This document shows, in pieces, positions 1,796 to 19,428 of a stretch of 21,317 nucleotides of DNA. The notes beneath the pieces were generated by a model. The model did no database searches and was not told where the DNA came from. It saw only the letters and a program-made list of their open reading frames with translations. Numbering within the stretch: position 1 is the stretch's first letter; every line of letters begins with the position of its first letter. Position numbers and translations under genes: made by a program. Origin of the DNA: a virus; the IMG/VR virus record IMGVR_UViG_3300031612_000568, positions 1 to 21,317 of that record; one strand, 5' to 3'.

Positions 1796-3706
1796 ATGCC
1801 ATCAGGCAAAGCAACAACCATTGAAAAATGGACACAGTACTTAGCATTAAGAAGCGCCGGGCATTCAATATATGCGGCAGCTAAAGAATGCGAAGTATCA
1901 TACCACGCATGTAAAGACGCTGAAGGCGAAAAAGCGCCACGTAATTACCTCGCAGCCAAAGAAGCCTTAGGCAAACAAGGCCCATCAGGCGTACCTTCAT
2001 ATGAAGATCTTATCCCTGAAGCCAAAGCAGCATATGACAATATAGAAATTTTTGCTCGGCGATATTTTGGCATTGTCTTGCAACCCTGGCAGATCGAAGC
2101 GACAGAACGCATCATGGGGTTAATGGATACAGAGTATGAAGAGTACGCTGTTATCAATGCACCACCTGGTTGCGGTAAATCTACCTTCTTCGCAAAGGTA
2201 TTACCTGCTTGGGCTACTATAAGAAATAGGGCTATTCGTGGGATGATTGGTTCTTCGTCACAAAGGCTAGCTGAATGGTACTCTCGTAGGTTAAGATCAG
2301 AGTTGGATCGTGCACATCCTGTGCGTGCTGAACTAAACGATGTCCGTTTAGGCTTAGCGGTGGACGCAGAAGCAACGATTCAAGAAGACTTCGGAATGTT
2401 TAAACCAGATTCGTCTGAAATTTGGCGTTCAGAAGCTTTCACTGTATTACAACAAGGTGACGTTCCGTTATCTCAAAAAGAACCTACATGGTCTGCGTTC
2501 GGGATGGACTCCGGTTTCCTTGGAGGCCGATTCGATCTTGTAATTTGGGACGATGTATATGATCCGAGGAAGATGCGCTCCGCAGATTCCAGAGAAGATA
2601 TGCGTCGTTGGTGGGATGAGGTAGCTGAAACACGTTTAGAGCCAGGCGGCTTGCTGATCCTACAAGGTCAGCGCATGTCCGCTGACGATATCTATCGTTA
2701 CGCTCTAGATAAAGTCGCCCCGCCCGACGAGTTAGAACTAGAGGAAGAAATCAATGTCGAAGACGCACCAGAAGAATGGCGAAAATACCATCATCTCAAA
2801 TATCAGTCGCACTATGAAGAGTCTTGCAAAGGCGATCACAAACCTGACGCCGCACCGTGGCCCGAAGGGTGCCTACTTTACCCTCGTCGATTGCCGTGGC
2901 GACGACTTAGACATGTTAAAGCGCAAACTCCAGACCGATTTGAAGTCCTGTATCAGCAATCGGACATAAACCCTGCCAATGTTTTAGTAGATCCGCTATG
3001 GGTTTCAGGCGGTAAAGGCAATGATGGGGTAGAACACCCCGGATGTTGGGACAATGATAGAGATATATGGGAGTTACCTGCCGGTATATCAGAAGATCTA
3101 ATGGTTATAGCTACAGCAGACCCATCACCATCCAAGTTTTGGGCCTTACAATGCTGGGCATACAACCCTAATTCAGAATACAGATACCTTTTAGAGTCGT
3201 ATCGCCGCAAGATGGATGCTCCAGCGTTCTTAGATTGGAGCCATGAAGACCAATGTTTCTCTGGAGTAGCAGAAGACTGGTGGCAAATAACTAATAAGAT
3301 GGGTAGACCAATAACTCACTGGGTTGTTGAAGCAAATGCTGCACAAAAGTTTATTATGCAGTACGATCACTTTAGACGATGGGCCGCATTAAGGAACGTA
3401 CAGTTAGTCCCACACTACACACACAGTAGAAATAAGGGTGACCCGAAGTACGGTGTGCAAATGTTGGCACCATTATGGAGAGTAGGGCGTATCCGTTTAC
3501 CAGGAAAACAAAACACAGAAGCAAGACCACATTCTTTGTTGTTAGTTAATGAAGTAACAAAATGGAATGCAGAAGGAACTGGTGCTCGCACAGACGATTG
3601 TGTTATGGCACAATGGTTTCTTGAACATAACTTAGAAAAACTACATACACCGAGTATAGTTAATAGTAAACAATGGCGACCTACATGGCTTTCTACAGCG
3701 GAATAA
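1796..3706 (+). CDS. terL: Terminase large subunit (636 aa)
   Basis: This is the ATP-driven motor and nuclease that cuts phage DNA and pumps it through the portal into the head. Residues about 10-45 form a helix-turn-helix-like N-terminal extension (AAKECEVSYHACK). The ATPase has a Walker A at about 122-130 (APPGCGKST), with Walker B LVIWDD at 248-253. The RuvC-like nuclease shows its expected acidic residues at D442 (ATADPS), E512 (VVEAN) and D600/D601 (TDDCVMAQ). AAAGGG at 1785-1790, five bases before the ATG, fixes the start. Length is at the upper end for the family. No separate small terminase is seen, so the N-terminal extension may supply DNA recognition; this is inference. Confidence 0.95.
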   Translation: MPSGKATTIEKWTQYLALRSAGHSIYAAAKECEVSYHACKDAEGEKAPRNYLAAKEALGKQGPSGVPSYEDLIPEAKAAYDNIEIFARRYFGIVLQPWQIEATERIMGLMDTEYEEYAVINAPPGCGKSTFFAKVLPAWATIRNRAIRGMIGSSSQRLAEWYSRRLRSELDRAHPVRAELNDVRLGLAVDAEATIQEDFGMFKPDSSEIWRSEAFTVLQQGDVPLSQKEPTWSAFGMDSGFLGGRFDLVIWDDVYDPRKMRSADSREDMRRWWDEVAETRLEPGGLLILQGQRMSADDIYRYALDKVAPPDELELEEEINVEDAPEEWRKYHHLKYQSHYEESCKGDHKPDAAPWPEGCLLYPRRLPWRRLRHVKAQTPDRFEVLYQQSDINPANVLVDPLWVSGGKGNDGVEHPGCWDNDRDIWELPAGISEDLMVIATADPSPSKFWALQCWAYNPNSEYRYLLESYRRKMDAPAFLDWSHEDQCFSGVAEDWWQITNKMGRPITHWVVEANAAQKFIMQYDHFRRWAALRNVQLVPHYTHSRNKGDPKYGVQMLAPLWRVGRIRLPGKQNTEARPHSLLLVNEVTKWNAEGTGARTDDCVMAQWFLEHNLEKLHTPSIVNSKQWRPTWLSTAE

Positions 3707-3719
3707 TAATGAGGTAATT

Positions 3720-5513
3720 GTGAAAACCGTAGATGAAATTTTAGCTATCTATTCTTCAAGAATGAGCATTAACAATTTTGCAAAAAGTCGGATGCGTACG
3801 CTTAGAGATCATTATAACGGGGAAATAGTTGTACCACTTCCAGAGATTGATTCTAACGAACAGTCTGCTGTAGCAAACTTACTAGCACAAGGTCTTGATC
3901 AGACAGCTATGCGTATAGCTTCTACAAGTCCTGACATTTATTGCCCACCTGCGGACAGTTCTGTTAAACGTTCGCGTAATAATGCTTCTATTAAACGTCG
4001 AGCTATTTTTGGTTGGTGGGAAAACAGCCGAATGGACTTACAACTATCTAAACGCGCAAGACATTTAATAGGTTACGCAACTACATGCACACAACTTATT
4101 TACAATGCTAAAACTGGGTGCCCTGAATGGCATGTACGTGATCCTTTAACTGCATACCCTTCACCATTAATTGGTCCACAAGATCTACGACCAAGAGATT
4201 GTATCTTTGCATACGAAAGAACTTTAGGTTGGCTTAACATTCATTATCCTGAAGCTGCTTTTGTTTTAAAACAACAAGGAGTAGCTAATGGTGAAAACAA
4301 TATAACAACCAACGATCAAGTAATAGATTTAATCGAATATTTAGACGCTGAAGAAACTGTTCTTGTAGCTAGCCGATCTACAACACCAACACATTTAAGC
4401 ACATTTGGTAACACAAACTCTACACCTAATGTAGTCAATATAGAACTAGAACGTATTCCAAATAGGTTAGGTGAAACTCCTGTAGTGTTTGCATCTCGCA
4501 TAAGTCTTGATGCGCCTCAAGGGCAATTTGACGGCATACTTGGTATGTACCAAATGCAAGCCAGACTTATGGCCCTTGAAGTTATTGCAGTACAAAAAGG
4601 TGTGTTCCCAGATACATGGCTAGTAGGCCGTGCTGGAGAAACTCCTCAGATTGTTAACCCTGCTGATGGGCTTACTGGCGAAGTTGGTGTTATCCGTGGT
4701 GGTGACATTAAAGATGTACAGATGCAACCAGGCTATATGACCAACCCAGCTATTGATCGTCTTGAAAGAGGACAACGTTTAACTGCTGGCATACCACAAG
4801 AATTTGGTGGAGAGTCAACATCTAATATTCGTACTGGGCGTCGAGGTGATGCTGTTCTAGCAGCAGTTGTAGACTTTAATGTTCAAGAATCTCAACGAGT
4901 AATGGCTCGTTCTTTACAAGAAGAAAACAAAATAGCTATTGGCATGGCAAAAACTTACGGACCAAATCGTCCACACAGTTTTTATGTAAACACTAAGAAT
5001 GCTAAAGGCAGAGTTGACTACAAAGCTAAAGACAATTTTGAGACAACAGATAATGTTGTTTCATATTCGCATCCAGGTGCAGATATAAACAACCTAGTTA
5101 TTAGCGGTGGTCAACGTGTCGGCATGGGAACCATGTCAAAGAAATCTTTTATGATGATTGATCCTTTAGTTGATGATCCAGAGTTTGAACATGACACTGT
5201 TATAGCTGAACAACTTGAAGAAGCTTTACTATCTTCTATACAACAACAAGCTGCTGAAGGCGTAATACCTCCAGGAGATTTAGCACGTATCATGAACTTA
5301 GTCGCTAATGATAAAATGGAATTAGGAGCTGCTGTTGAAAAAGTTCAACGTGAAGCTCAAGAACGTCAAGCTGAACAAGTTCAAGCTATGGCTCCTGAAG
5401 CACAAGCTGGTTTAGGAATGGCAGGTATGGGGGCAGAATCTATGGTTGAAGAACAAATGGTTGAAGAAGCTCCAGCAGCGACTCCTTCATTACAAGAATT
5501 GTTAGGTGTGTAA
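3720..5513 (+). CDS. Portal protein (597 aa)
   Basis: This protein forms the dodecameric ring at one capsid vertex through which DNA enters and leaves and on which the terminase docks. Support comes from position directly after terminase, length, and sequence features seen in portals. These include an N-terminal helical stretch with RMRTLRDHYNGE, a wing region with HVRDPLTAYPSP, the stem/crown helices around GQFDGILGMYQMQARLMALEV, and a Gln/Glu/Met-rich C-terminal tail. The start is GTG, chosen because GAGG at 3711-3714 lies five bases upstream. The C-terminal 60 residues are low complexity (repeated Glu, Gln, Ala, Met) and probably flexible inside the head. Confidence 0.9.
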   Translation: MKTVDEILAIYSSRMSINNFAKSRMRTLRDHYNGEIVVPLPEIDSNEQSAVANLLAQGLDQTAMRIASTSPDIYCPPADSSVKRSRNNASIKRRAIFGWWENSRMDLQLSKRARHLIGYATTCTQLIYNAKTGCPEWHVRDPLTAYPSPLIGPQDLRPRDCIFAYERTLGWLNIHYPEAAFVLKQQGVANGENNITTNDQVIDLIEYLDAEETVLVASRSTTPTHLSTFGNTNSTPNVVNIELERIPNRLGETPVVFASRISLDAPQGQFDGILGMYQMQARLMALEVIAVQKGVFPDTWLVGRAGETPQIVNPADGLTGEVGVIRGGDIKDVQMQPGYMTNPAIDRLERGQRLTAGIPQEFGGESTSNIRTGRRGDAVLAAVVDFNVQESQRVMARSLQEENKIAIGMAKTYGPNRPHSFYVNTKNAKGRVDYKAKDNFETTDNVVSYSHPGADINNLVISGGQRVGMGTMSKKSFMMIDPLVDDPEFEHDTVIAEQLEEALLSSIQQQAAEGVIPPGDLARIMNLVANDKMELGAAVEKVQREAQERQAEQVQAMAPEAQAGLGMAGMGAESMVEEQMVEEAPAATPSLQELLGV

Positions 5514-5918
5514 ATGCCAAGATCAAATAAAAATGGTTCACAACCTGTTGCTGCGGCAAAAGGTCAAGAGTATGGGGAAAAACAAAAACAACTTGATTCA
5601 CAAAGTGAAATGCCATTACCTGCTATAGGTAATAATGTTAAACCTCAGCAAGATCTTGCACCAAAAAAAACAGCACCTGTATCAGGTGAAGGGTTTGGTC
5701 CTTCAAGATTACCTGGTGAATCAATTACTGCACCTATGAGTCAAGAAGTATTCAATATTAATGATGTGCCTCTTCCCCCGCAAAGAGTCCAAACTCTAGC
5801 ACCAGCTATCCACGAATTTTTAACGTTAGCAAACAACATAAACGCTGATCCTGATATTCAAACTTTTGTTAGAAGAATGCAAAACTTTATTCCTACTAAA
5901 TACGATGTGCCTAAATGA
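5514..5918 (+). CDS. Small disordered protein between portal and giant protein (134 aa)
   Basis: The ATG follows the portal stop codon directly, with AGG at 5504-5506 as ribosome binding site. The stop overlaps the next start as ATGA, so it is translationally coupled on both sides. Residues 1-85 are rich in Lys, Gln, Pro, Ser and Gly and look unstructured. Residues about 90-134 (AIHEFLTLANNINADPDIQT and following) look helical. No recognised domain. Its place suggests a head-completion, scaffold-like or portal-associated role, but this is inference only. Confidence 0.8.
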   Translation: MPRSNKNGSQPVAAAKGQEYGEKQKQLDSQSEMPLPAIGNNVKPQQDLAPKKTAPVSGEGFGPSRLPGESITAPMSQEVFNINDVPLPPQRVQTLAPAIHEFLTLANNINADPDIQTFVRRMQNFIPTKYDVPK

Positions 5919-8900
5919 GTTTCGGAAGTCGTGTATATAAAATTGCTCGCTCACCAATAGACTTAGGAGCGCAAGCTCTTGATCTAATTTTTGATGGTGT
6001 AGTTCGATTGCCCGAAGAACAATTTGATGTTATAGATTCTTTCTGGGAATCTTGGCGTGACAATATAATGGGGCAAGAAAGCAAAAGCGGTACTGGAGAA
6101 AAATCTGTACTCGGTTCAGCGTTTGGTCCAGAAGGTGTAATTGGTTCTATGGTAGGCGCATTACCTACCGAAGGCAATGCAGGCATACTACGTCGTGAAG
6201 GTGGCAAACTCCTTTGGGACCCAATGATGCAAGTACTGCAATACAGTTACAAAAATTTTGTTGATAGACCAATAGGGACTTTAGCAACTTTATACAATAT
6301 AGGGCTTGCTGAAAACAATAAGTTCTACAAAGACAATCCACAGTATGCAGGTCTAAGCGGATTAAATCCGTTAATGATGCTTGATGAAGTTAAAAACCGT
6401 GTAGGTGATGGAGCTTTTGATTCACGTCTTTATGACATAAGCACATACACAGACGTTTGGAATATATCTGAAAGTAGAAGTGCAGGCCAAGCAATAATTT
6501 TAGCTTTGCGTTCTACTAACATTTTAGACCCTGAAGAACTTGAACAAGAAATGGGAACTCAGTGGTACCAAATAGGTAGTGGTATTATAGATTTTAATTT
6601 AAATATTGTTGGTGATCCTGCATTTCTTGTAGCTAAAGGTATGCGTGCAGGTTACGCAAATAAACTAGCTAAACAACAATATGCTCAAACTGGCACATAT
6701 GATTTAAATGTGTTAAAAGGCAGAAGTCCTTTTAGTCCTTTTCTTTACAAAGACGATATTGTGCGTCCAGGTCGTAGAGGTAAACCGGACAGAGTTATAA
6801 ATAGAGATGCTTTGTTTTGGGAAAAGTGGGATTATAATCCTCAATGGGAAAAAAGAATTACACCTGCAACAATAGACGAAGCAATAACTAGTCCTGGTTT
6901 TGTTACTTATAAACAAACTGTTCAAAATATTGGTTACAGATTGTTAGGTGAATTAACGCCTGAAGCAAGAGGCGACATAGACCCTAATTATTTAACAAGT
7001 AGTGAACTGCCATATGATTCTTCTAGCATGGAGAATCCTTTATTAGAGCTTAATAATGGTCTTCCTACTCCACAAAGACCAGTACTAACTTCTGTTACAA
7101 ATAACCTCTTATCTGCTGAAGAAAGTTTTTCAATTAAAAAGAATGACTTAATACAGCTATGGAACAACATACTAACGTATGAACGTGAGACAAAATTCCC
7201 TGGTACTTTTGATACACCTACAGGTGGAGTATTTGAGGTTAATATAAAATCTCTTTCTGACAATGATCTGTTTAACGGTATACCAACTGAGTGGATGGAT
7301 TCACTTTACGCAGCTACAGACGCACTTTTTGAAAGAACTCAAAAGTTAGATACAGAACTTAACGCTTTGCAACAGCACAAAGTAGTAGTTGACGAATACA
7401 AAGATTATTTAAATACATTTTTTGATGATGCTGATGCACGAGTATCAGATTTTGATAATGAAAGATTTACATTAAACCCGGATGACATTTTTTTAGATGA
7501 CACTATTCAAAAATTATCAGAAGAAGTTGATATAGCAACTTTTCAAGAAGATGCTTTAAACAAAATATTTGATGAGTTACTTGTTCAACAAGACATTCGT
7601 AATGATTTTTTGAGTACTTTAGCAGGAGACTCAGAAATTCAGTACTTGTTAAATGAAAGCCCTAGGAGAATTCTTACACCAGAAGGTTATGTAGATGCAC
7701 CAACGTCAACTCCTACAGAAAGATTTACAAAACAATTAGCTATGAAAATTCTTCAAGCTGGTCGCAAAGGTGAACTTGGGCCAGGATGGAAGAATTGGGA
7801 TATGCGCGACGCTTGGGTTTACAGCCAACAAGTTGCAAGAATGTGGAATGTTGGAGACGTAACAAGCGCTTCGTGGTTACCGTTTGATAATTATATGCGG
7901 TTGCGTCTTAACTCTCCAGAAGCAGTTGCAGTGTTTGAACAACAAGCACGAGTTTTATCAAACATTCTTTTTGTTAATGATATGACACCAACTAATCCAA
8001 TACCACCAAAAGGTCTAGTAGCATTAAATAATTTAATAACTCTAAATAGAAATATTCGTTATTGGGAAGATGTCGCATCAGGTCGTATGCAACATGAACA
8101 ATCTACAGCATCCGGCCCTATCATTATTTCAGAAACAGTAGGGAAAGAAATAGCTAAACAAAATTTAGTTTATTTAAAAGAATACAAAATCGTAATGGAA
8201 ACAGATAACCCTAAGTTTTTTGATTCTATTGAAGCAATCATAAAAGATGAATTAAATGTTATACAAGGAAAAGCTGCACAAGGTTTTGATGAAACGTTTT
8301 CGCCTGATAACCAAAACGTTCATATTGATAACCAAGAGTCAGGCATGACCACAAGGCCTCCAGAGCCAGGGACTTTTGAATATGACGCTGCAATAGACGA
8401 GCTTCACGGTCTTTCTAAAATACCTTGGAATGCAATTCTTGCTTTACGTGAAACTTATTTACAAAAACTTATGGCACCCTATGACCTTACCCGAGGCATA
8501 GGACTTGTTGATCCTCCGAATCGTCTTAAACATGGTTTAGAAGGTTACGAGCATATAACTGATATGGCTGTAACTGAAATACTTAGAACTTCTCATATAC
8601 CAATTTTGCCACAAAACATGCTTCCTTATCTAGGCCCAGAAAATCGATTAGGTTTTAAAGCACGCACATTTTTTGAGAAGTCTGAATTTGTTAGCACACG
8701 TTTAAATAGTAGAGCCGCAAGAATTACAGTAGAAAAAGTACCTCAAGGCATAGCTAACTGGCATCAGCCTGACCATGCGTTAGTTCAAGTTGAACGTATG
8801 CTTCGAGATGTTTCACGTATTTCTGGTATAGATGGTATACCTATTTTAGAAAAAGCAGGTCTTAATGCTAATGATGTAATGATTGAGTTTTTAGACAAGA

Positions 8901-11900
8901 CAACAAGCATTACAGATATGGTAAAGCACTACGACATTATAGTTAATAAACTTGTTGAGGCACTTGTTGACACATTTGCTGATATGCCGCACCCAATTAA
9001 AAATCCACAAGGTTTAGAAAATGGTGCAAAAATTGTTGACAAACAACAAGTTATAGAAATTTTAAGAGGCGATCTTACAAGTGCTCAAGAAATATTAGTT
9101 AAAGCAGCAGATGAAGGTTTAGCTAAAGAAGCAAGTTTTGGAAACGTAGATTACACAACAGTTGTTGTTAACGAAGACGGTCAAACCCTTTCAAGAAATA
9201 TTGCTATTAGCCCTAGCCAAATGCGTGATAGTTCTGTTGTCCCACGTTTTGACATGTATCAAAGACTTGTTAAAGCTATTGTTGGGGATTACAAAACAGT
9301 ATTAGATACAGCACCAGATGGTACAATAACAAAGCGACTTGTACATATTGGTTCAAGCAGAGCGACAGTAAGAAATGCTAGAAGATTAGCTACAACTTAC
9401 TGGAAGAAAAGTGTTCTTCTTACACCACGATGGCAGATGGTTGTTAACATTGATTCGCTTTTAAGAACTGTTGCTACTGTTGGAGCAGCGGCAACTATAG
9501 GTCGTATTGGTGACAGAGTAGATACTTTGCGTTCACGGTGGCTTACTAAAGCTGGTGTAGATGTTGATGCTATTGTTGAAAAAAAGCTGTATAGAACTTT
9601 ACAAGATATTGAACTTGCAGACGATGCTAGTCCAACCCTAAATTCATTTGACCGTATAGAAATAGAAAGCCGTCAAATTGGAGAAAAAATAACAGCGTTA
9701 TCAAACGTTAATTCAGTACAAGAACTTTTTGATGTTATAGATTTTGATCGACTGCCTCCAGGAGGCAGTTCTATGGTTAGAGACTTAAACCGTTACGAAG
9801 CAAGTCCAGTTGATCTTGGTGATCGAATGGATGGAGCAGATTATGGAGTAGACGGTTTTGATGTAAGTGATTTTGATTATGCTGGAATGACTGGCGAAGA
9901 CATCGTTCTTGATTTTATAGAGATTATGAGTATAGATGATTTTGTATTTTACAATACTAGATTTAGGGAAATTCCTGTTGAAGATCTAACTGCTATGTCT
10001 GGCTCTGATTTGTCATCAATGTCAAATCGACAGTTAATTGAGCAATATAACAGAACAATTCTTGAGTTTAATGAACAACCTAGTTATATAGAATTTGAGA
10101 TTGTAAACCAAGCAGCAACTCAAATTGATCCTATTGCAGATTGGTTTATTGAAACTAGGCCTAATAGTCAGTGGTCAGGGCAAGCATCTTTAACGGATGC
10201 AGCAGGATATCTTGAAGATTTATTTCCAAATCAAAATTGGAATGAACCACTTAGTTTTCCTGATGAAGGTATTGGTAGGTCTTTTGAAAGACCTAGTTAT
10301 CGAGACCCTGAACTGTCTCGTGATGCTGGAGTTCCAGGACGGGCATTAGAAGATATCGATTATGAAGTAAGTATTGAAGAAGTTATGAGTGAAATGTTTG
10401 ACGAAGAGTTTTTTGAAACTTTACGTGCTGCTAGTGAGAATATTGAGTTAGCTAAAACTTTACCGCCAGGTGATCAAAAATCAATACTTATAGCAAATAT
10501 TAGATCTACTTGGGTAGAGATAGCTATGAAACAAATGGAAACAAATACTCGAAACCACGAATACTACCGTGTTCGTCAAGAAATGTTTTACAGAATAGCT
10601 CAAGACTTACAGAGTGATGCTGACAGCTATTTCAACGTATTGAGCAACGACGAAGCTAAGTTAGCTAAAGAAGCAGTAACTTCTCGATATGCAAGTGATC
10701 AAGGTTTTAAAAATGCTTTAGAAGTATCTTCTGATTTTAGTTCAATTCAAAAAGCTATATCGGAAGAAAAAGGTTCAACCTTTAAATCGTCTGTTGATGA
10801 TTCTTTTGTTTCGGAAACCCCACCAAACGAATTGTTTGCAAGTAATTTAGAACAAAATTTGCGTCAGTTAGAAACAACAGGCATGTCTACACAAAACATG
10901 TTTGTTTCGTCAGTTAACTGGTACAACAGACAACACAATAATGGTGTCCCTGGGTACGAACTTTCTTATCAAGAGCTTGTAGAAAATGTTATAAACGAAG
11001 AATATGCTAAAGGTAGAAAACGTCGGCGTATAGGTTTGTCTACAGGATTAGGATTATTTTTTGCTGGTCCTGCTGGTGGTCTTGCTGGTGCCGCTGCTTA
11101 TAACAAATACTCTCGTAAGTCTTTAGCTATAGCTGCACAAAAACAGATAGCTGATAGTTATGGTCAACAGCTTTTGCTTGAAGCTCATGACATGATTCAA
11201 AGAATGGAAGATTTTGAAGTCGCAGTTATGGAGCGGCGGACATACGACCTCGAAGCTATGTCTCAGGGAACTATTAAAGATGTCGGTGATAACCCAGAGA
11301 TTATTGAAGCTTATGGGGATGCACGTCCTTTACCTATATCTAGAGAGGATTGGCCAATACTATATCAAAGTTTAGACGAAGATTTATTAGATGATTTTGT
11401 AGCCCGACAAGCAGATGATATTGAAACTTTTGAGCTTAGGGAGGTGGGTGGTAATCAATTTGTACCAAGATCAAAAGAAGAGATACAACTTCTTTTAATA
11501 AGAATGTCTGAAGAATTAGACATAGCTGATTGGTTAGCTGCTAGAGCAAAAGATAGAAAAGAAGCTGCAAAGCTTTTAGCAACTCGTGCAGAACTTGTAA
11601 CTGATCATCAAAAAAATGTTGTTGCACAATTCAAATCAGAAACTCCTGAAACTGCTGGACGTTTTGAACAAGCAGCAAAAATACTTGGAGACGCAGGTTA
11701 CGGAACAGCCCATGTTGGTGATATTAATTTAGGTAATCCGTGGGGTGATACTCCGCAAGTACAAAAAATTAACGAACGAGTCAATAGCGCTAACGCAACT
11801 AAACGTCATATTTGGCAAGATCAAAATGCTGTGCAACGTGAATCAGAACGTTACGCAGGTTCTTACCAATACGATTATAATGTTCCACAGGAAACAGCAG

Positions 11901-14383
11901 GATTTAAATTAGCGTGGAATGATTTTATGGCTCGTCATGCTGGGCCTAGCGGTGTTGCAGGTGTGTCTGCTAATAGAGATTTTTGGCGACAATTTTGGTT
12001 AGGTAAATCTTCTGAAGAAGTTATTGAATGGTTGCGTACTGATGGCAAAAAAGTATTAGACGATTTGCCTGAAGAATATAGAACTCTTGAAGGCATTGAA
12101 GATCTTGAAAGAAAAACAAGATGGGAATCAGAAAGTCTTATACCTAATACTGCTGAGTTTGCAAAAGTACGTTTAAAATTAGCTCAAGGTAATGAAGTTA
12201 AATGGGATGTAGATATTCAGCCAATTATAGATTCAGTTCAAAAATCACAGGATATTTTGTTAGATACTATTATAAGGCTTGATCCAGTTAATGCTGACAT
12301 AAGTAACTTTAGTACTTTATATGTAGAAGATCCTCAACTTGGATTGTTAGTTCAGTCATATTATAGGGATACTGGTGGTACAGCTAATCTTATAGTTGCT
12401 GCTGAAATTGTTAAAGCTATGCCTCCTATGCAACGTAGACGTGAAATAGCAGATCTTCGTCCTGATCAGTTTGGAGAAGTACCTGAAGGTTTCTTACTAG
12501 AAAACGGTGCAATAGATTTTGGTAAAACTGTTACAGATTCTTCTTTCTTAGACGGGCAACAAACAACATCAAACATTAAACGTATTAAAGAATCTGTTGA
12601 TTCTATATTAGATAATGCGTTTGAAAACTTGACAATGGTTGAAGACATTGTTTCCCGTGGAACATTGTTTGAGTCTTTGTATGAAGCACAAATGGCTATG
12701 GAACTTCAGCCATTTAGAAATTCAGATGGTACATACCGTTTAGATGGAGAAGATATAGAAAACTTGCGTGCTCGTTCAAGACGTAGAGCTATAAAAGAAA
12801 CAAAAATGGTTCTTTACGATCTTGCAGAACGTTCAAGATTTGAAGAAGTCATGCAAGAAATTTCTCCTTTCTTAGGTGCATGGACAGAAGTAACAAGTCG
12901 TTGGATAGGTATTGCTGCTGATAACCCAGTGTTTGTAGCTAGAGCTTTACGAAGTTGGGCGATGCTTACTGCTGAAGATGAAAACAGAAATAGTATATTA
13001 GTGTTCCAAATGCCAGGTGTTTTAGATGCAGAAGTATTTGGTAAAAAAGTATTTGGCAATATCAGTATGTTGTCTAAACAAAAAATAGATTTGAATCTTA
13101 AATCTGCTGCAATGCTTGGAAGCTTGCCAACATTTGGGCCGATAGTTAGTTACTTATTTACAGAAGTTGCATTAGAAGCTCCTGAAGTAATGGAAACTTT
13201 AGGTTGGGTTGTGCCTTACGGATTAGCTGAAGGTCCTAATCCTTTAGCAAGACTTGCAGATTCTTTTAGTCCTTCTTGGCCAAAAGCTTTAACTGCTAAA
13301 TTTGGTATGGATCAATCTGGTAGAGCAAAAACTAGAGTTAAAATTACACAAGATTACTTAGCTGAACTTTGGGTTAATGGTCAAGAAGTTCCTAGCTCAG
13401 GTCTTGAAATGGATGAGTTTGTTAAAGAAGTTGATCGCAGAACGTCAATGGTATATGGCATAAAACTTATGCGGTCGCTTACAATCCCTATAGCTATTAA
13501 ACAACAGTCTCCTTATTGGGGAACTATTTCTGAGTACTGGCGTAAGCAAGATGAAATTGGTTTAGAAGAAGCTGACGATTGGCTTTTAGAAAACCATCCA
13601 GAGCTTTGGTCATTTACTGGAAGAATAACTGCTAACAAAGGTGTTATAGCTGGCACTCTTGTAGGTCATCAAAATTATAAAAAGCATAAAGAAATAGCTA
13701 ATCGACATCCAGTGCTTGGCGGTTTTATTACAGGTCAAGACGGTGCAGTAGATGTGCAATTCGAACGTAATGAAGCTGTTATGCAGATAGAACGTAATCG
13801 TGGGAACCGTGAGTATTTACCGCCAGAAGGAATATTAACTTTAGCGGCAGAAAAAATAGGGTGGCGTGAGTATGGAGTCTTTAGAGAATCTATTGATTCA
13901 AGGTTACGTTTAAAAGCTTTGTCTGGTGGTTCGGCAAGCCTTAATGCTAAAGACAATTATGCAGAGTCAAGAGCATTAAAACAGTTTGTTAAAGAGTTAG
14001 GTAAAGAAAACTCTCAGTGGCTTACAGAATATAATGACCTTGGAAATATATCTAAACAGCAACAAATTTTGCAAGGCTTTAGAGATGTTGTAGATAGTGG
14101 TGATTTTGATTACCGTGTCGAATTGCCTTACATTGAAATGTTTATTAATTTGCATGACAGTATTGCTAGGCAAATGATTCTTCGAGCAAGAGTTAGAAAC
14201 AATAACAGTTATTTGTTATTGAGTTATAAAGGCAATGAAGATCTTGAACAAAGATGGGCTGTAGGCACATTGAAAATTCGTGAGTACCCAGATTTTAGTA
14301 ACATCTATGATGTGTATTTTAGTAATATGAGTAGTGTGTCTACTGGAAATCTTACTCAATCATTAGTTAGCATAGGAGCGTAA
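5915..14383 (+). CDS. Giant internal/ejection-type virion protein (2822 aa)
   Basis: One uninterrupted frame of 8.5 kb, coupled to the previous gene by ATGA. No enzyme motif was found. From memory, several parts match very large structural proteins of phages of actinobacteria. These are a basic helical segment at about 1149-1192 (YWKKSVLLTPRWQMVVNIDS), a Gly/Ala-rich hydrophobic stretch after an Arg/Lys cluster at about 1700-1735 (LFFAGPAGGLAGAAAY), and RSRFEEVMQEISPFLGAW at about 2305-2332. Further C-terminal, LGSLPTFGPIVSYLF is at about 2402-2416 and VPYGLAEGPNPLARL at about 2433-2447. An acidic, probably flexible stretch lies near 1279-1345. The likely role is a head-internal or vertex protein ejected with DNA to help it cross the cell envelope, replacing a tape measure protein. 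N4-type virion RNA polymerase was considered and not supported. Confidence 0.8.
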   Translation: MSFGSRVYKIARSPIDLGAQALDLIFDGVVRLPEEQFDVIDSFWESWRDNIMGQESKSGTGEKSVLGSAFGPEGVIGSMVGALPTEGNAGILRREGGKLLWDPMMQVLQYSYKNFVDRPIGTLATLYNIGLAENNKFYKDNPQYAGLSGLNPLMMLDEVKNRVGDGAFDSRLYDISTYTDVWNISESRSAGQAIILALRSTNILDPEELEQEMGTQWYQIGSGIIDFNLNIVGDPAFLVAKGMRAGYANKLAKQQYAQTGTYDLNVLKGRSPFSPFLYKDDIVRPGRRGKPDRVINRDALFWEKWDYNPQWEKRITPATIDEAITSPGFVTYKQTVQNIGYRLLGELTPEARGDIDPNYLTSSELPYDSSSMENPLLELNNGLPTPQRPVLTSVTNNLLSAEESFSIKKNDLIQLWNNILTYERETKFPGTFDTPTGGVFEVNIKSLSDNDLFNGIPTEWMDSLYAATDALFERTQKLDTELNALQQHKVVVDEYKDYLNTFFDDADARVSDFDNERFTLNPDDIFLDDTIQKLSEEVDIATFQEDALNKIFDELLVQQDIRNDFLSTLAGDSEIQYLLNESPRRILTPEGYVDAPTSTPTERFTKQLAMKILQAGRKGELGPGWKNWDMRDAWVYSQQVARMWNVGDVTSASWLPFDNYMRLRLNSPEAVAVFEQQARVLSNILFVNDMTPTNPIPPKGLVALNNLITLNRNIRYWEDVASGRMQHEQSTASGPIIISETVGKEIAKQNLVYLKEYKIVMETDNPKFFDSIEAIIKDELNVIQGKAAQGFDETFSPDNQNVHIDNQESGMTTRPPEPGTFEYDAAIDELHGLSKIPWNAILALRETYLQKLMAPYDLTRGIGLVDPPNRLKHGLEGYEHITDMAVTEILRTSHIPILPQNMLPYLGPENRLGFKARTFFEKSEFVSTRLNSRAARITVEKVPQGIANWHQPDHALVQVERMLRDVSRISGIDGIPILEKAGLNANDVMIEFLDKTTSITDMVKHYDIIVNKLVEALVDTFADMPHPIKNPQGLENGAKIVDKQQVIEILRGDLTSAQEILVKAADEGLAKEASFGNVDYTTVVVNEDGQTLSRNIAISPSQMRDSSVVPRFDMYQRLVKAIVGDYKTVLDTAPDGTITKRLVHIGSSRATVRNARRLATTYWKKSVLLTPRWQMVVNIDSLLRTVATVGAAATIGRIGDRVDTLRSRWLTKAGVDVDAIVEKKLYRTLQDIELADDASPTLNSFDRIEIESRQIGEKITALSNVNSVQELFDVIDFDRLPPGGSSMVRDLNRYEASPVDLGDRMDGADYGVDGFDVSDFDYAGMTGEDIVLDFIEIMSIDDFVFYNTRFREIPVEDLTAMSGSDLSSMSNRQLIEQYNRTILEFNEQPSYIEFEIVNQAATQIDPIADWFIETRPNSQWSGQASLTDAAGYLEDLFPNQNWNEPLSFPDEGIGRSFERPSYRDPELSRDAGVPGRALEDIDYEVSIEEVMSEMFDEEFFETLRAASENIELAKTLPPGDQKSILIANIRSTWVEIAMKQMETNTRNHEYYRVRQEMFYRIAQDLQSDADSYFNVLSNDEAKLAKEAVTSRYASDQGFKNALEVSSDFSSIQKAISEEKGSTFKSSVDDSFVSETPPNELFASNLEQNLRQLETTGMSTQNMFVSSVNWYNRQHNNGVPGYELSYQELVENVINEEYAKGRKRRRIGLSTGLGLFFAGPAGGLAGAAAYNKYSRKSLAIAAQKQIADSYGQQLLLEAHDMIQRMEDFEVAVMERRTYDLEAMSQGTIKDVGDNPEIIEAYGDARPLPISREDWPILYQSLDEDLLDDFVARQADDIETFELREVGGNQFVPRSKEEIQLLLIRMSEELDIADWLAARAKDRKEAAKLLATRAELVTDHQKNVVAQFKSETPETAGRFEQAAKILGDAGYGTAHVGDINLGNPWGDTPQVQKINERVNSANATKRHIWQDQNAVQRESERYAGSYQYDYNVPQETAGFKLAWNDFMARHAGPSGVAGVSANRDFWRQFWLGKSSEEVIEWLRTDGKKVLDDLPEEYRTLEGIEDLERKTRWESESLIPNTAEFAKVRLKLAQGNEVKWDVDIQPIIDSVQKSQDILLDTIIRLDPVNADISNFSTLYVEDPQLGLLVQSYYRDTGGTANLIVAAEIVKAMPPMQRRREIADLRPDQFGEVPEGFLLENGAIDFGKTVTDSSFLDGQQTTSNIKRIKESVDSILDNAFENLTMVEDIVSRGTLFESLYEAQMAMELQPFRNSDGTYRLDGEDIENLRARSRRRAIKETKMVLYDLAERSRFEEVMQEISPFLGAWTEVTSRWIGIAADNPVFVARALRSWAMLTAEDENRNSILVFQMPGVLDAEVFGKKVFGNISMLSKQKIDLNLKSAAMLGSLPTFGPIVSYLFTEVALEAPEVMETLGWVVPYGLAEGPNPLARLADSFSPSWPKALTAKFGMDQSGRAKTRVKITQDYLAELWVNGQEVPSSGLEMDEFVKEVDRRTSMVYGIKLMRSLTIPIAIKQQSPYWGTISEYWRKQDEIGLEEADDWLLENHPELWSFTGRITANKGVIAGTLVGHQNYKKHKEIANRHPVLGGFITGQDGAVDVQFERNEAVMQIERNRGNREYLPPEGILTLAAEKIGWREYGVFRESIDSRLRLKALSGGSASLNAKDNYAESRALKQFVKELGKENSQWLTEYNDLGNISKQQQILQGFRDVVDSGDFDYRVELPYIEMFINLHDSIARQMILRARVRNNNSYLLLSYKGNEDLEQRWAVGTLKIREYPDFSNIYDVYFSNMSSVSTGNLTQSLVSIGA
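9751..9769. repeat. 19-bp palindrome inside the giant gene
   Basis: ACTGCCTCCAGGAGGCAGT has two 9-base arms that are exact reverse complements around a single central A. It is G/C-rich in an AT-rich gene and encodes the LPPGGS turn. As RNA it would form a hairpin with an 8-bp stem and 3-base loop. Confidence 0.5.
10276..10295. repeat. 20-bp palindrome inside the giant gene
   Basis: TAGGTCTTTTGAAAGACCTA has two exact 9-base reverse-complement arms around a TG centre. It lies about 520 bases after the other strong palindrome in the same gene. A protein-binding site, an mRNA hairpin or chance are all possible. Confidence 0.45.
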
Positions 14384-14384
14384 G

Positions 14385-15572
14385 ATGGCTTTTTGGGATT
14401 TTATTACAGACGCATTGTCATATCTTGGTGAATCACAACTTGAAGTAACAGAATCTGAAAGACAAATGCAAGAAGAACTTGCTGTTCTAGTAAATAATAA
14501 AATAACTGAATGGGACAACGAAGGTGCAGGAACAGAAATTCCTGCTGGTTTAAAAGAATCGGCAGATGCAGTAACAGCGGGTGCTTCTGGAGCTAATGGA
14601 ATTGAAATAGATCCTAACGAATTCATAAATCAATTCGGTGAACCTATAGAAGGACCTAAAGATCCTAAAGGTTCTACTAGAAGTCTTGTAACTGATTCTT
14701 ATTTAATGGCAACTATGAATCCTTCTACATGGCTTCAGTCAGATTCTATGCCTGACTTAAAACTAAATCCTTATCGGCTTGGGAATCGTCAAGCTCAAGA
14801 AGGAGATATGAATTATACGGGGATGATGGGTACTGATGAAATAGAATTTTATGAACAAAGCTATAGAGGTCAAGGTGTAAGAAGAAGATCATGGGAACCT
14901 GATACCACAATGATGGGTGATGGTTTTGGTGCATGGCAACGTCAAACTGTTGAAGATGTTCCGTTTACTATTTCTGATGCAATGGGAATTTTTGATGCAC
15001 AGAGTCCAGAGAAACAACAGCAGATTGCTGAAGGTTTAGCTTTAGGTAGCGATGGAACAAATTGGATGTATAGAGCTGTAGGCGATTCTATGTTTACAGA
15101 TCCTGACATGATTTATAATAGAGAGAGTGTTAGGCAAGCTTTTATAGAAATGGGTGAAGTTGCAAGCGGTGTTGCTGGAACTCTTCAAGGTGGTTTTCAG
15201 GAACTTGGAAATGAATTTATTCCTGATTTAGAACCAAACATTACTGTTGGTCAATTTACTGACAACATTTTTGATGCAGCTATTAACGCTGGCGCTATTA
15301 AACGAATGGACCCTTTGTATATTCAAAATCGTGGTGAAGCAATTTTGCCTGCTTTGACTGGTTTAAGAGCTACTCCTGAATATCTTAAGCTTGTTAGTGG
15401 GTGGGCTGAAGAGTTTCAATTACAAAACATAGGTGGTAATCCGTATACGAATGAATCTAGATTAGATTCGTTTATAGTAGATAAAACTAGAGATGAGTAT
15501 CCTGATGAACTATCACAAAATCGTACGAATGATAATGCTTCATCTTTGATGAGAGCTTTTGGGATTGAATAA
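14385..15572 (+). CDS. Unknown, probable internal virion protein (395 aa)
   Basis: AGGAG at 14374-14378 lies six bases before the ATG. The stop overlaps the next start as TAATG. I do not recognise a domain. The N-terminus has an amphipathic helix (WDFITDALSYLGES) followed by a Glu-rich helix, then a Gly/Met-rich central part with MMGTDEIEFYEQSYRGQG and a charged, polar C-terminus. No membrane segment. Its place between the giant protein and the lysozyme-like protein, with co-translated junctions, suggests that it belongs to the same internal or ejection complex. Confidence 0.8.
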   Translation: MAFWDFITDALSYLGESQLEVTESERQMQEELAVLVNNKITEWDNEGAGTEIPAGLKESADAVTAGASGANGIEIDPNEFINQFGEPIEGPKDPKGSTRSLVTDSYLMATMNPSTWLQSDSMPDLKLNPYRLGNRQAQEGDMNYTGMMGTDEIEFYEQSYRGQGVRRRSWEPDTTMMGDGFGAWQRQTVEDVPFTISDAMGIFDAQSPEKQQQIAEGLALGSDGTNWMYRAVGDSMFTDPDMIYNRESVRQAFIEMGEVASGVAGTLQGGFQELGNEFIPDLEPNITVGQFTDNIFDAAINAGAIKRMDPLYIQNRGEAILPALTGLRATPEYLKLVSGWAEEFQLQNIGGNPYTNESRLDSFIVDKTRDEYPDELSQNRTNDNASSLMRAFGIE

Positions 15573-17473
15573 TGAAATTAGATACAGATCAACAAGAAAT
15601 ACGATCACGGTTAGCTGCGACTCTTTACAATATGGGATTGCGTTCAGAAGATCTTATAGATGCGTTAGCTATAGCTCAAAATGAAAGTGTATGGGATGAA
15701 AAAGCGTATAATGGTGAAGATAATGATATCTCTTATGGTTTGTTTCAAATTAATACAAAGATAGACGCTGAATGGCAAGAAATTATTAATTTTTTAACTG
15801 GGGGTGATGGAAGTACATTAGAAAAAGAAAAGCTTTTTGATTACGATACCCAGATATCTGCGTTTGTTTTAAAATATTTATTACAAGATTATGCTTTTAG
15901 TGATTGGGCTACACATCCTTCGTATTCTGATACCCATGATGTACCCTGGACCGAAGCTAAACAAAAGAAATGGGAAGAAGCAAGAACAGATGCGATTGAA
16001 TTTTTAGAAATAACTCCAGGGTTAAATGATTGGGAAATATCTGATCCTCAAAATAATCTTTTTACTGGTGTAGTTAATGAAAAAATTGCTAGAGGTCAAC
16101 AAATAGCAAACGAATACATGGGGCAAGATACTCGTGTTGACGGTATGGGTTTTACAGGGAGTAGGGGTGGTAATGAATGGGCTGATGTAGTAAGAGTTAT
16201 ACAAAAAACTGTTGGGGCAGATGAAGATGGTTCTTATGGCCCTAACACAATTAAAGCACTTGATAACTGGCTTGTTGAACAAGACATTGATCGAGGAATT
16301 ATGCTTGATGGTATTCCTCAAGAAACAACTAGTTACTTTAGTAACACCAATCTAGAAGGCAGACCTATGTCTGTATCTTCTACAGATACAAATGAAAATG
16401 TTGTTTACAACGAAGAGCTTGACAGGTATGAACCTATTTCTTTTACTGAAGATGGTTTAGAACCAAGAGATGATTTTGCTCCAGAACCTTTTGCTGATCA
16501 GCGTGAACAAGATCAACCACTTATTGATCGAAACCAAAGCATTACTGATGCTACTGAAAACGCAAAACAAAACAATCCTAAGCTACATTTTTATAGATGG
16601 TTACGTGGACGAGACGACGCAACTATTGACGGTGTTAACATAATCGATATTATGGAAGCTGATGAATCAGGTTTCCAAATAGGCACTGATCAATATGATG
16701 AATGGGTAGAGTCTCTTGTTTCTCAAACAGAGTTTTACAGAAACCATGCTGATATTTATGTTGCAAATGCTAGTGAATGGTATGCAGGTGGGCTTGATGA
16801 AGGTTGGACTGAGCGACGTAAAGACTTAGTAAGTAGTTATGTTCAAAGTATCAATAACCTTTCTGGCAAATTAAATCTAGATTTAGATGATGATGAAATT
16901 TTAGAACTAGCTAGAGTTGCTTGGTTTAACGGTTTTGATGTACAAGAGTTACAAGATTATGTAGCTGAAGCTGAAAACGTTAGTTTTGATGAAGAAGCTA
17001 TAGCTGGTGGTTCAATATCAGATACTCGTTCTGAAGTAAAGAATTTGTATAGAAAGTATTTGATGATTCCAAATGAGATTCTTTTGGAAGAAAGCAGCAA
17101 AAAAATATTTAGAGGTACATCAACAATAGGTTTTATTGAAGACGAGTTGCGTCAACAAGCGGCAGATGTTTACCCAGTTTTTGCAGACAGAATTTTAGCG
17201 GGGCGTAGTCCTTTACAAATTCTTAGTGGCTACGATTCTATTTTTTCTTCTGTCACAGGTATTCAGCCTCAGTGGGATGGGGAACAAAAAGATGTTGGTA
17301 TCAAATTAGCTAGTGGAGCTAAACTGGCTAATGGTGATGATGTTAATACTGGTAACTTAGCTACGTGGTTGCGTACTGATACAAGTGTTGGTTATGACGC
17401 TATGCCTAAAGCAATAAATAATGCTTACAGTTTAGTTAAAGGCTTAGGACAAACGTTTGGAGCGGTAGCGTAA
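15572..17473 (+). CDS. Virion lysozyme/transglycosylase-like protein with helical C-terminal module (633 aa)
   Basis: Residues about 10-115 look like a lytic transglycosylase or lysozyme-like domain. A likely catalytic Glu38 lies in AIAQNESVWDEKAYN, followed by SYGLFQIN at 54-61, a hallmark of this fold. Residues about 201-240 (WADVVRVIQKTVGADEDGSY, then GPNTIKALDNW) resemble a peptidoglycan-binding helical domain. An acidic linker follows. Residues about 487-573 carry a helical module (FIEDELRQQAADVYPVFADR, then ILAGRSPLQILSGYDSIF) that I associate with large virion proteins of actinobacterial phages, ending in a typical LATWLRTD motif. It probably cuts peptidoglycan during DNA entry, not at lysis, because it lies in the structural operon and has no signal peptide. 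The start overlaps the previous stop as TAATG. Confidence 0.8.
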   Translation: MKLDTDQQEIRSRLAATLYNMGLRSEDLIDALAIAQNESVWDEKAYNGEDNDISYGLFQINTKIDAEWQEIINFLTGGDGSTLEKEKLFDYDTQISAFVLKYLLQDYAFSDWATHPSYSDTHDVPWTEAKQKKWEEARTDAIEFLEITPGLNDWEISDPQNNLFTGVVNEKIARGQQIANEYMGQDTRVDGMGFTGSRGGNEWADVVRVIQKTVGADEDGSYGPNTIKALDNWLVEQDIDRGIMLDGIPQETTSYFSNTNLEGRPMSVSSTDTNENVVYNEELDRYEPISFTEDGLEPRDDFAPEPFADQREQDQPLIDRNQSITDATENAKQNNPKLHFYRWLRGRDDATIDGVNIIDIMEADESGFQIGTDQYDEWVESLVSQTEFYRNHADIYVANASEWYAGGLDEGWTERRKDLVSSYVQSINNLSGKLNLDLDDDEILELARVAWFNGFDVQELQDYVAEAENVSFDEEAIAGGSISDTRSEVKNLYRKYLMIPNEILLEESSKKIFRGTSTIGFIEDELRQQAADVYPVFADRILAGRSPLQILSGYDSIFSSVTGIQPQWDGEQKDVGIKLASGAKLANGDDVNTGNLATWLRTDTSVGYDAMPKAINNAYSLVKGLGQTFGAVA

Positions 17474-18819
17474 TGGCTGATAATCCTGATTTTAAACTAG
17501 GTGACAAGTACACCGGACCGGCTGTAACTAAATCTAAGAGGGGTAGACCCGGCAAAGTTATTAATCAAAAAGATGGCACGTTTGTTGAGGGTAATGTCAG
17601 ATATATTTGGACTGGGGTAGGTGACAACTTTGTTCCCGAAGGTGGCTGGGGTGCAACCACCAAGGCACAAGCAGCCGAAGACAACAGAATAGCCGAATTA
17701 GAATTAGATGCTTACGACGAGTCACAATACACTCAAGTTACAAGAGCTGACGGTAGTGTTGCTCCAGGTGTTTACCGTAATAATCCAGAATATTATAGTG
17801 GTGCTGCTACGGCTCCTGAAGATGCTGGGGCAGTAGACAAACTAGGCAACCCTAAATACAATGTAGGCGAAGATAGGAAAGGTAATCCTAAATGGGATTT
17901 AAATCCAAAGTTTAATTCATCAAAAGGACCTTCAAATGATTCTTCAAGTAATCTTCCAGACACTTCATATGTCAATTATTTAAGAGATCAAAATATTGCT
18001 GGAGCTAAAAGCATTATAGAAGGCTTTCTTAAAAGATTTGGTTTAGCTGGGTTAACTTCTTGGGCGCAAAACCAAGCTGATTTAGGTATGTCATCTGACG
18101 CAATAACTATGGAATTACGTTACGGCACTGACCCTACAGTAAGAAAAGTTTATGATGAAGCTTTTCCTGCTATGAAGATAAGACGAGAAAAAGGTTTTGC
18201 AGAAATAACTGAAGTGGAATCTATGGAGTTAGATCGTGGTTATAAACAAATAGCTGCTGCTTCTGGTTTAGATCCAAAATTAGTAGGCAAAACTCAAATA
18301 ACTACATTGCTTAGTAACGATGTTTCTTTGTCTGAGTTCCGAGACAGAGTGCAAACAGCAGAAGATTATGTTAATGATTTACCTGCTGAAGCTAAAGCTA
18401 TAGCTGCACAAACATATGGTTACACTAACCAAGATATGGTTTCATACATTTTAGATCCTACGCTTACAGAAGATATTAAAAAAACTTCACGTAATTTTGA
18501 TGTATCACGTTTGAGAGCTGCTAGTAAAATTACTTTAAATCAAACATTTTCAGAAGAAATTGGTGAGCTTCTAGTTTCTAATGATGTACAAGCAAGAGAA
18601 ATTTCTGCTCGTTTGTCTCCATTAGCAGGTTTGACTGATAGTACTCTTTATAATGATTCATTAAGCGCTAACGAATTAACTGAAGCAAGTTTTGGGTTGT
18701 CAGCAAATTCTTTTGACTCTGTTAGAAGATCTAAAGGAAATCGTATAGCTAATTTTTCTGGCAATTCTGGACAATTAATTAATCAAGAAGGTATTTCTAC
18801 ATTAGGTAGAGCGACTTGA
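17473..18819 (+). CDS. Probable internal virion protein, helical (448 aa)
   Basis: The start overlaps the previous stop as TAATG, with GGAG at 17459-17462. Residues 1-160 are Lys/Gly/Asp/Asn-rich and probably extended, with a small possible beta domain at 25-60 (KVINQKDGTFVEGNVRYIWTG). Residues about 165-448 are helical and begin with FLKRFGLAGLTSWAQNQADLG. The sequence AFPAMKIRREKGFAEITEVE (about 230-249) fits a module I recall in large virion proteins of actinobacterial phages, where short segments ending FP and an Arg/Gly turn recur. No enzyme motif or membrane span. It is the last gene of the internal-protein operon, just before a new promoter, so it is probably part of the same ejection complex. 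Confidence 0.78.
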   Translation: MADNPDFKLGDKYTGPAVTKSKRGRPGKVINQKDGTFVEGNVRYIWTGVGDNFVPEGGWGATTKAQAAEDNRIAELELDAYDESQYTQVTRADGSVAPGVYRNNPEYYSGAATAPEDAGAVDKLGNPKYNVGEDRKGNPKWDLNPKFNSSKGPSNDSSSNLPDTSYVNYLRDQNIAGAKSIIEGFLKRFGLAGLTSWAQNQADLGMSSDAITMELRYGTDPTVRKVYDEAFPAMKIRREKGFAEITEVESMELDRGYKQIAAASGLDPKLVGKTQITTLLSNDVSLSEFRDRVQTAEDYVNDLPAEAKAIAAQTYGYTNQDMVSYILDPTLTEDIKKTSRNFDVSRLRAASKITLNQTFSEEIGELLVSNDVQAREISARLSPLAGLTDSTLYNDSLSANELTEASFGLSANSFDSVRRSKGNRIANFSGNSGQLINQEGISTLGRAT

Positions 18820-18848: not shown

Positions 18849-18939
18849 TGTTTATGTGATTCGGCCCTTGCGGGGTGTGCTGTTTTACAACTTCCATCAC
18901 AGGTACCACCGCCTGGGATGTGTATCTAAGGTGAGAAAA
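18849..18939 (+). promoter_or_regulatory. Structured 5' leader of the scaffold-capsid transcript
   Basis: This leader of about 85 bases is more G/C-rich than the flanking genes. TGTGAT at 18855-18860, the expected first bases of the RNA, pairs exactly with ATCACA at 18896-18901. A small CCC-TTGC-GGG hairpin (18865-18874) lies inside. It ends with AAGGTGAG (18928-18935), the ribosome binding site for the ATG at 18940. A 5' hairpin that stabilises the mRNA is the simplest reading. Confidence 0.4.
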
Positions 18940-19428
18940 ATGGCAAATTCAAATTCTACACAAAACGCTGATCAGAAACCAGAAAATTTCAGGCGTGTTT
19001 ATGAGGATAAAATTAGTTCTTTAAGTCAAAGGACTGATGACCAAGATAAAGTACTTGCAGAAAAAGACGCTTTAATAGAGCGTTTGCAAAATCAGAATTC
19101 GTTTCGTGATGCCGGACTTGATACGTCTGACAGATTGAATGAAATGTTTATGAATGCTTATCGAGGTGATATGTCGGTTGAAGCTATTCAAGCAGAAGCT
19201 AATTCGTTAGGTCTGTTAGATAGACAATCTTCGTCACTTACTCAACAACCTCAGCAATACGAAGATACTTTTGGTGATGAGGCGCAACAAAGAATTGTTG
19301 CTGCTGGACAAGGTGGCGATCCAATCGCATTGAAAACATTAGATGATGCTATGAGCGGCGCTAAAAACGCTACTGAACTGCAAGCAGTTTGGGAAGCAGC
19401 CGGTCATGTTTGGAACGGCGCAGTCTAG
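18940..19428 (+). CDS. Probable capsid scaffolding protein (162 aa)
   Basis: The ATG at 18940 is preferred because AAGGTGAG lies just upstream. A longer frame starts with GTG at 18856, right at the predicted transcript start. The protein has a polar N-terminus and a charged helix likely to be a coiled coil (DKISSLSQRTDDQDKVLAEK, about 20-39, continuing to about 50). It then has a helical middle part, a Gln/Ser-rich linker and a short helical C-terminal domain (ATELQAVWEAAGHVWNG). This size, charge pattern and position directly before the capsid gene are usual for scaffolds. Sequence similarity to a named family is not evident to me. It shares the promoter at 18821-18848 with the capsid gene. 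Confidence 0.65.
   Translation: MANSNSTQNADQKPENFRRVYEDKISSLSQRTDDQDKVLAEKDALIERLQNQNSFRDAGLDTSDRLNEMFMNAYRGDMSVEAIQAEANSLGLLDRQSSSLTQQPQQYEDTFGDEAQQRIVAAGQGGDPIALKTLDDAMSGAKNATELQAVWEAAGHVWNGAV

Follow-up and report, generated by a model that had tools for sequence, protein, structure and literature searches.

Results and Discussion

A 2,822-residue reading frame between the portal and capsid genes

The window, by which we mean the whole stretch of DNA that was analysed (21,317 bases), is an entire virus record, which is probably a fragment of a genome. Its relevant features, with their matches to PHROG families and to proteins of the Streptomyces phage Manuel, are the following:

1796-3706, plus strand: terminase large subunit (phrog_38, E 3e-49; Manuel gp01, 98.9%)
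3720-5513, plus strand: portal protein of 597 aa, the same length as Manuel gp04 (profile match to the Manuel portal, 63%, syntenic)
5514-5918, plus strand: 134-aa gene whose stop overlaps the start of the giant gene (Manuel gp08, same slot, weak at 35%)
5915-14383, plus strand: giant open reading frame, 2,822 aa, 318 kDa, pI 4.75; putative internal virion or ejection protein of the phrog_10618 type
14385-15572, plus strand: 395-aa cassette gene, conserved in marine relatives; in the slot of Manuel gp11, with no sequence match to gp11
15572-17473, plus strand: 633-aa cassette gene with an N-terminal lysozyme/transglycosylase-like domain and a C-terminal phrog_6654 domain in common with Manuel gp12 (NlpC/P60) and gp13
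17473-18819, plus strand: 448-aa cassette gene (phrog_8424; Manuel gp14, 99.4%)
18856-19428, plus strand: probable scaffolding protein (weak match to Manuel gp63, same slot)
19468-20457, plus strand: major capsid protein (phrog_1357, E 4e-54; Manuel MCP, 100%)

The giant frame begins with an ATG that overlaps the stop of the 134-aa gene before it (ATGA at 5915), has no internal stop and covers 39.7% of the window. The remaining five frames over the same interval each contain between 110 and 361 stops, and the chance of an open frame of this length at the base composition of the window is about 10^-96. The frame has been kept open in the close relatives L002 (2,795 aa, 87% identity) and L003 (2,748 aa, 55%), and the dN/dS ratios against L002 are 0.13-0.27 in the main conserved modules. 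Thus, the giant frame is under purifying selection, and the uninterrupted frame of 2,822 residues, taking 40% of the window, that an earlier note on this DNA had described is borne out. The same note had placed the gene between portal and capsid, which is correct, yet four genes (395, 633, 448 and 190 aa) separate it from the capsid gene. The GC content of the window is 53% in the first kilobase, 35-40% over the giant gene and rises again to 42-44% at the capsid gene.

The cassette that starts with the giant gene

The 395-aa gene follows the giant gene after a single base, and the next two genes are joined by one-base overlaps at 15572 and 17473, which indicates that the giant, 395-, 633- and 448-aa genes form a tightly packed cassette. 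The 633-aa gene product has at its N-terminus a match to PF00062 (E 4e-5, below the cut-off of that family) and an ES...SYGLFQIN motif, and about 12 relatives carry a similar lysozyme-type motif (G-x-F/W-Q) in its counterpart. The window therefore contains four large late genes that include a lysozyme-like domain (15572-17473), as in gene clusters of the T7/P22 type with a peptidoglycan hydrolase. Manuel gp12 has an NlpC/P60 peptidase domain at its N-terminus and the same C-terminal domain as the 633-aa protein. As this carrier domain is common to the 633-aa protein and Manuel gp12 and gp13 while the enzymes differ, the wall-cutting domain appears to have been swapped on a conserved carrier near the giant gene.

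Homology to the giant late proteins of the Beephvirinae

One link to known phages is a match of phrog_10618 to residues 2219-2351 of the giant (HMMER, E 2e-14); Manuel gp10 is a full member of this PHROG. Comparison in pieces with hhalign gave four colinear matches between the giant and Manuel gp10: residues 174-252 with 125-236 (91%), 1043-1198 with 539-690 (94%), ~1993-2110 with 848-953 (55%, a weak match) and ~2241-2806 with 987-1589 (99.9%, E 9e-32, 532 columns). Control comparisons with wrong halves gave no match. A tblastn search of the whole giant against phages found no match; only its C-terminal piece retrieved Streptomyces phages.

With the AlphaFold model of residues 1660-2822, Foldseek found the giant of Manuel in BFVD (E 1e-13), while the same model, of pLDDT only 63, retrieved nothing from the PDB at E <= 0.001. 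The weak model of the N-terminal half had its best structure match at a non-significant E of 0.015. Model confidence is moderate across the giant (pLDDT 57-63), and the predicted fold is dominated by helices.

The genomic context agrees with these matches. The slot from portal to scaffold and capsid, with the same neighbours, is matched between the window and Manuel. When the terminase, portal, 134-aa, 633-aa, 448-aa, scaffold and capsid genes were compared with Manuel, each had its best match in the syntenic gene; the 395-aa gene matched no Manuel gene. Three of these matches (portal 63%, 134-aa gene 35%, scaffold 26%) are weak when taken alone, but fall in the correct slots. Two genes farther downstream in relatives also have phrog_7578 and phrog_11667 in common with Manuel. 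The giant is a divergent, expanded orthologue of the late protein (1,635-1,646 aa, phrog_10618) of the Beephvirinae, a group of Streptomyces phages in which the members examined are podoviruses. It is a new, expanded member of an already known family of podovirus giant proteins. Like the giants of Manuel (gp10) and FlowerPower (gp9), it follows the portal gene and small genes and has gp12/13- and gp14-type neighbours. It differs in its length of 2,822 aa, which mainly reflects linker expansion in the window, from the usual ~1,640 aa; length is a common property of the family rather than one that defines it. In addition, the neighbouring gene is lysozyme-like instead of NlpC/P60, and the window does not have a high GC content.

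Conserved modules and variable acidic linkers

An alignment of 33 members divides the giant into six conserved modules (residues 1-260, 595-690, 815-1240, 1660-1790, 1850-2110 and 2197-2822 of the window protein) with variable stretches between them:

5915-6694, plus strand: conserved N-terminal module, residues 1-260 (residues 174-252 match Manuel gp10 125-236; dN/dS 0.13)
6695-7696, plus strand: variable acidic linker, residues 261-594 (334 aa in the window, 38-674 aa in relatives)
7697-7984, plus strand: conserved module, residues 595-690
8357-9634, plus strand: conserved module, residues 815-1240 (residues 1043-1198 match Manuel gp10 539-690)
9635-10891, plus strand: variable, strongly acidic linker, residues 1241-1659 (419 aa in the window, 0-492 aa in relatives; dN/dS ~1)
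10892-11284, plus strand: conserved module, residues 1660-1790
11009-11125, plus strand: basic-flanked Gly/Ala-rich hydrophobic segment, residues 1699-1737 (KGRKRRRIGLSTGLGLFFAGPAGGLAGAAAYNKYSRKS), a putative membrane-interacting hairpin
11462-12244, plus strand: conserved module, residues 1850-2110 (part matches Manuel gp10 848-953, 55% probability; dN/dS 0.18)
12503-14380, plus strand: conserved C-terminal module, residues 2197-2822 (modelled as helix nearly throughout; ~2241-2806 match Manuel gp10 987-1589; dN/dS 0.14)

The dN/dS ratios against L002 follow this map: besides 0.13 and 0.14 in the terminal modules, they are 0.27 for residues 801-1240 and 0.18 for 1851-2110; the regions of the two small modules (591-800 and 1661-1790) have ~0.5, and the linkers range from 0.6 to 1.3. 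Over 39 members, the core modules sum to 1,796 +/- 153 aa and the linkers to 84-1,275 aa, total length tracks linker length (r 0.96), and the linkers are more acidic than the modules in 32 of the 39; these statistics are descriptive only, since the members are mutually related. Two relatives, L174 and L184, have insertions within stretches counted as module, so that the core is not strictly constant.

The segment at residues 1699-1737 is present in nearly all marine members, with G1718, P1719 and G1721 invariant, and was not seen in the Beephvirinae giants, including that of Manuel. Its best 21-residue mean hydropathy in the window is 1.27, which is borderline for a membrane helix, and contact with the membrane is for this reason proposed with caution.

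An architecture of conserved modules separated by variable linkers might suggest that the giant is a polyprotein whose cleavage releases several smaller proteins, either of the virion or non-structural, and the 4,491-aa giant of phage Burro has indeed been seen as a band of ~250 kDa (PMC7302621). However, no protease or conserved cleavage motif was identified in our case, and the order and number of the modules are fixed among the full-length marine members. We regard processing of this kind as improbable; it would be compatible with a role in ejection and is, hence, only partly a rival to it.

Searches of Pfam and the PDB with the giant and with family profiles returned nothing, with zero Pfam families above their own cut-off, in agreement with the earlier observation that the protein has no recognisable enzyme motif. 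That note had named a match to a polymerase as an outcome that would speak against its reading, and a rival view is that the giant is a packaged virion enzyme, above all a giant RNA polymerase like that of phage N4 (3,500 aa), injected for early transcription. The N4 enzyme is of similar size, is encoded by a giant late gene of a short-tailed phage and has a beads-on-a-string anatomy (PMC12633501). Nevertheless, no polymerase was matched in Pfam, PHROG or the PDB, including by the C-terminal model; the giant has no R-K-YG or D.DGD-type motif and no profile similarity to N4 gp50; and the residues that never vary are for the most part Gly, Pro, Trp, Arg and Tyr, not a catalytic set of carboxylates (those of module 815-1240 are Q1102, P1110, R1111, D1113, W1163, L1168, P1171, W1173, V1177, D1180 and R1184). 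These sequence features largely refute the polymerase reading, which we consider extremely improbable.

Relatives of the giant in further, mostly marine, records

Queries with the capsid and portal proteins returned 79 and 43 loci, respectively. A homologue of the giant was found in 34 of the 34 records that were searched whole, and about 12 more came from the portal search; altogether, more than 40 further records, mostly marine, have a giant in the same slot. Intact giants span from 1,524 to 3,409 aa, and the gene order is conserved: giant, ~260-530 aa, ~320-970 aa, ~400-540 aa, scaffold (~158 aa) and capsid (~315 aa). Among cellular genomes, the capsid query retrieved no relative and the terminase query one; a plasmid search gave no match.

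Two records deserve separate mention. The shortest intact giant (1,524 aa) is encoded by a contig with 71% GC (L196, IMGVR_UViG_3300045303_000212) that has a portal 44% identical to that of the window and a WhiB gene, and this contig ties the low-GC marine clade to high-GC phages. An overlapping frame of 1,630 aa is also open there; the family profile picks the 1,524-aa frame. The second record (G026, with loci L140-L142 and L153; IMGVR_UViG_3300020476_000002, 59,966 bases) contains two portals, two giants (1,837 and 2,915 aa) and two capsids, and the DNA of the two phage copies is 89% identical over ~3.8 kb after the capsid gene. It probably consists of two strains joined in assembly; even so, it is an instance of the giant/hydrolase cassette being replaced within a similar backbone. 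Separately, the unannotated phage record OX376640 (L006, Caudovirales sp. ct2KA10) has at 8727-14021 a 1,764-aa ORF in the slot of the giant, 20% identical to the giant of Manuel, and a capsid ~40% identical to that of the window.

Virion morphology and host

The characterised relatives are short-tailed. Abafar, which belongs to the Beephvirinae, is podoviral in morphotype, and its tail is very short (PMC11536984); in Destructrice (cluster BF) the tail measures 16 +/- 2 nm and a tape measure could not be identified (PMC13097060). These data bear on the view that the giant is a tape measure, determining how long an extended tail becomes. In favour of this view, the giant is a long late protein of helical make-up, it is encoded close to a wall-hydrolase domain, as is frequent for tape measures, and tape measures are among its weak Foldseek neighbours (E 0.2 or worse). 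Against this, the cluster BF relatives are podoviruses with a 16 nm tail and no tape measure (PMC13097060, PMC11536984), although their member Manuel has a giant of 1,646 aa; a chain of 2,822 aa would correspond to ~420 nm of tail at 0.15 nm per residue; the giants of 1,837 and 2,915 aa in the double record lie beside the 89%-identical post-capsid DNA (~3.8 kb); and the slot precedes scaffold and capsid. A tape measure is therefore very improbable.

With respect to the host, WhiB scores above its cut-off in 4 of 21 relatives, while only a single genome among 14 controls (Corynebacterium) has it. This is a pointer to actinobacterial hosts and agrees with the Streptomyces link. It should be noted that a contig with a 2,095-aa homologue (L198, PARV01000048.1) is binned in a MAG labelled Gammaproteobacteria, and that the stretch read looks viral. 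The label is probably a binning error, as the binning of viral contigs is unreliable. Because of this contrary signal, we grade an actinobacterial host for the phage of the window as probable. Upstream of the terminase gene there are two small genes, at 810-1163 and 1191-1667, both conserved in relatives and each with an apparent N-terminal hydrophobic stretch; the latter has weak Rz-like spanin (E 0.008) and XhlA-like (E 0.1) matches. A spanin would imply an outer membrane, and this candidate thus bears on the host question.

A probable ejection protein

A helical, size-variable giant combined with a wall hydrolase cassette in a short-tailed phage is the pattern known for ejection proteins (PMC8954989), and the giant would accordingly be stored in the head and ejected first. 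Ejection-protein operons carry a hydrolase domain, and gp15/gp16 homologues diverge in size (PMC8954989), as do the relatives of the giant. From its gene neighbours and relatives we infer that the giant is probably the chief internal protein of the virion, with a role in ejection, in a short-tailed phage whose host is probably an actinobacterium, and that it belongs to a giant-plus-hydrolase cassette. Of the two roles that the earlier note had offered, a main DNA-ejection component is the best supported, by homology and synteny; a tape-like component has no such support, given the podovirus relatives and a roughly two-fold length variation amid closely similar tail genes.

The virion location, ejection, membrane insertion and threading of the giant can be combined in the following proposal. 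The giant would be made late as the first product of the four-gene cassette (giant, 395, 633 with the wall-cutting domain, and 448), and a few copies would be packed in the head near the portal while the particle assembles around the scaffold. At adsorption, the cassette proteins would leave through the portal and short tail ahead of the DNA, and the 633-aa partner would cut the peptidoglycan. The helical modules and the basic-flanked Gly/Ala segment may then line or anchor a conduit across wall and membrane, which the DNA would follow. The core of ~1,800 aa would do the work, and the acidic linkers would be spacers that let the 318-kDa chain thread as beads on a string; for N4, passage of a 3,500-residue beads-on-a-string chain through a channel of ~35 A has been proposed (PMC12633501).

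A different view is that the giant is built permanently into the tail or its tip and is not ejected. In FlowerPower, the neighbouring gp11 and gp12 carry the annotation 'minor tail protein', and the NlpC/P60 neighbour in Manuel matches the tail-lysin PHROGs phrog_329 and phrog_400. We consider this view unlikely, because the giant is predicted to be mostly helical without beta-rich fibre or adhesin domains, separate later genes resemble a tail or appendage set (phrog_7578, phrog_11667, phrog_38058), and the variation sits in the acidic linkers and not in a terminal receptor-binding domain.

Several observations count against the ejection reading as well. Ejection proteins are mainly associated with podoviruses of Gram-negative hosts and are absent from phi29-like phages of Gram-positive hosts (PMC8954989). 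Moreover, the giant has no similarity to T7 gp14, gp15 or gp16 (all probabilities were 0.5% or below in a profile comparison with these three proteins) and no PDB match by sequence or, with models of only moderate confidence, by fold; its slot lies before the scaffold, and its hydrophobic segment is borderline. The resemblance to T7 gp14/gp15/gp16 (and P22 gp7/gp20/gp16) would be in the way they work only: large helical late proteins and a peptidoglycan hydrolase in a short-tailed phage. Unlike in T7, there is one giant for gp15 plus gp16, the enzyme is encoded by a separate gene and the hosts are probably actinobacterial; also, the giant gene lies between portal and scaffold and before the capsid gene, whereas the T7 core genes come after tail genes. 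With the N4 virion RNA polymerase gp50 it has in common a giant single chain of loosely joined domains that is a probable ejected cargo, but it lacks both sequence similarity and a polymerase motif; homology was found neither to N4 gp50/51 nor to Pf-WMP3 ORFs 25-27.

Among experimental precedents for a giant protein associated with the virions of an actinobacterial podovirus, the nearest are Burro gp27 and Akoni gp31 of Microbacterium podoviruses (>4,400 aa), although homology to the giant of the window was not detected. Burro virions contain a protein of ~250 kDa attributed to gp27 (PMC7302621). In these phages the giant gene is likewise beside the portal gene, but it precedes the portal, unlike that of the window.

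We may speculate further, though we consider it less likely than not, that the family represents a single-chain ejection apparatus for monoderm hosts. One giant would replace gp15 plus gp16 of T7 and form a channel across the wall and membrane of a Gram-positive cell; the linkers would be adapted in length to the envelope of the host, and the enzyme that cuts the wall would be exchanged as a module encoded in a neighbouring gene. Such an apparatus would form a structural class of its own, without relation to the ejectosomes of T7, P22 and N4, and would be widespread in ocean phages.

The finding is of value because the family is broad, is designed as core plus linkers and has culturable relatives. 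PHROG 10618 gains a probable function. The existence of culturable members (Manuel, FlowerPower and Abafar) makes the crossing of the Gram-positive wall by podoviruses directly testable. The family suggests that short-tailed phages of actinobacterial-type hosts, mostly marine but including soil isolates, carry a very large ejection-type protein that is unrelated in sequence to those studied so far.
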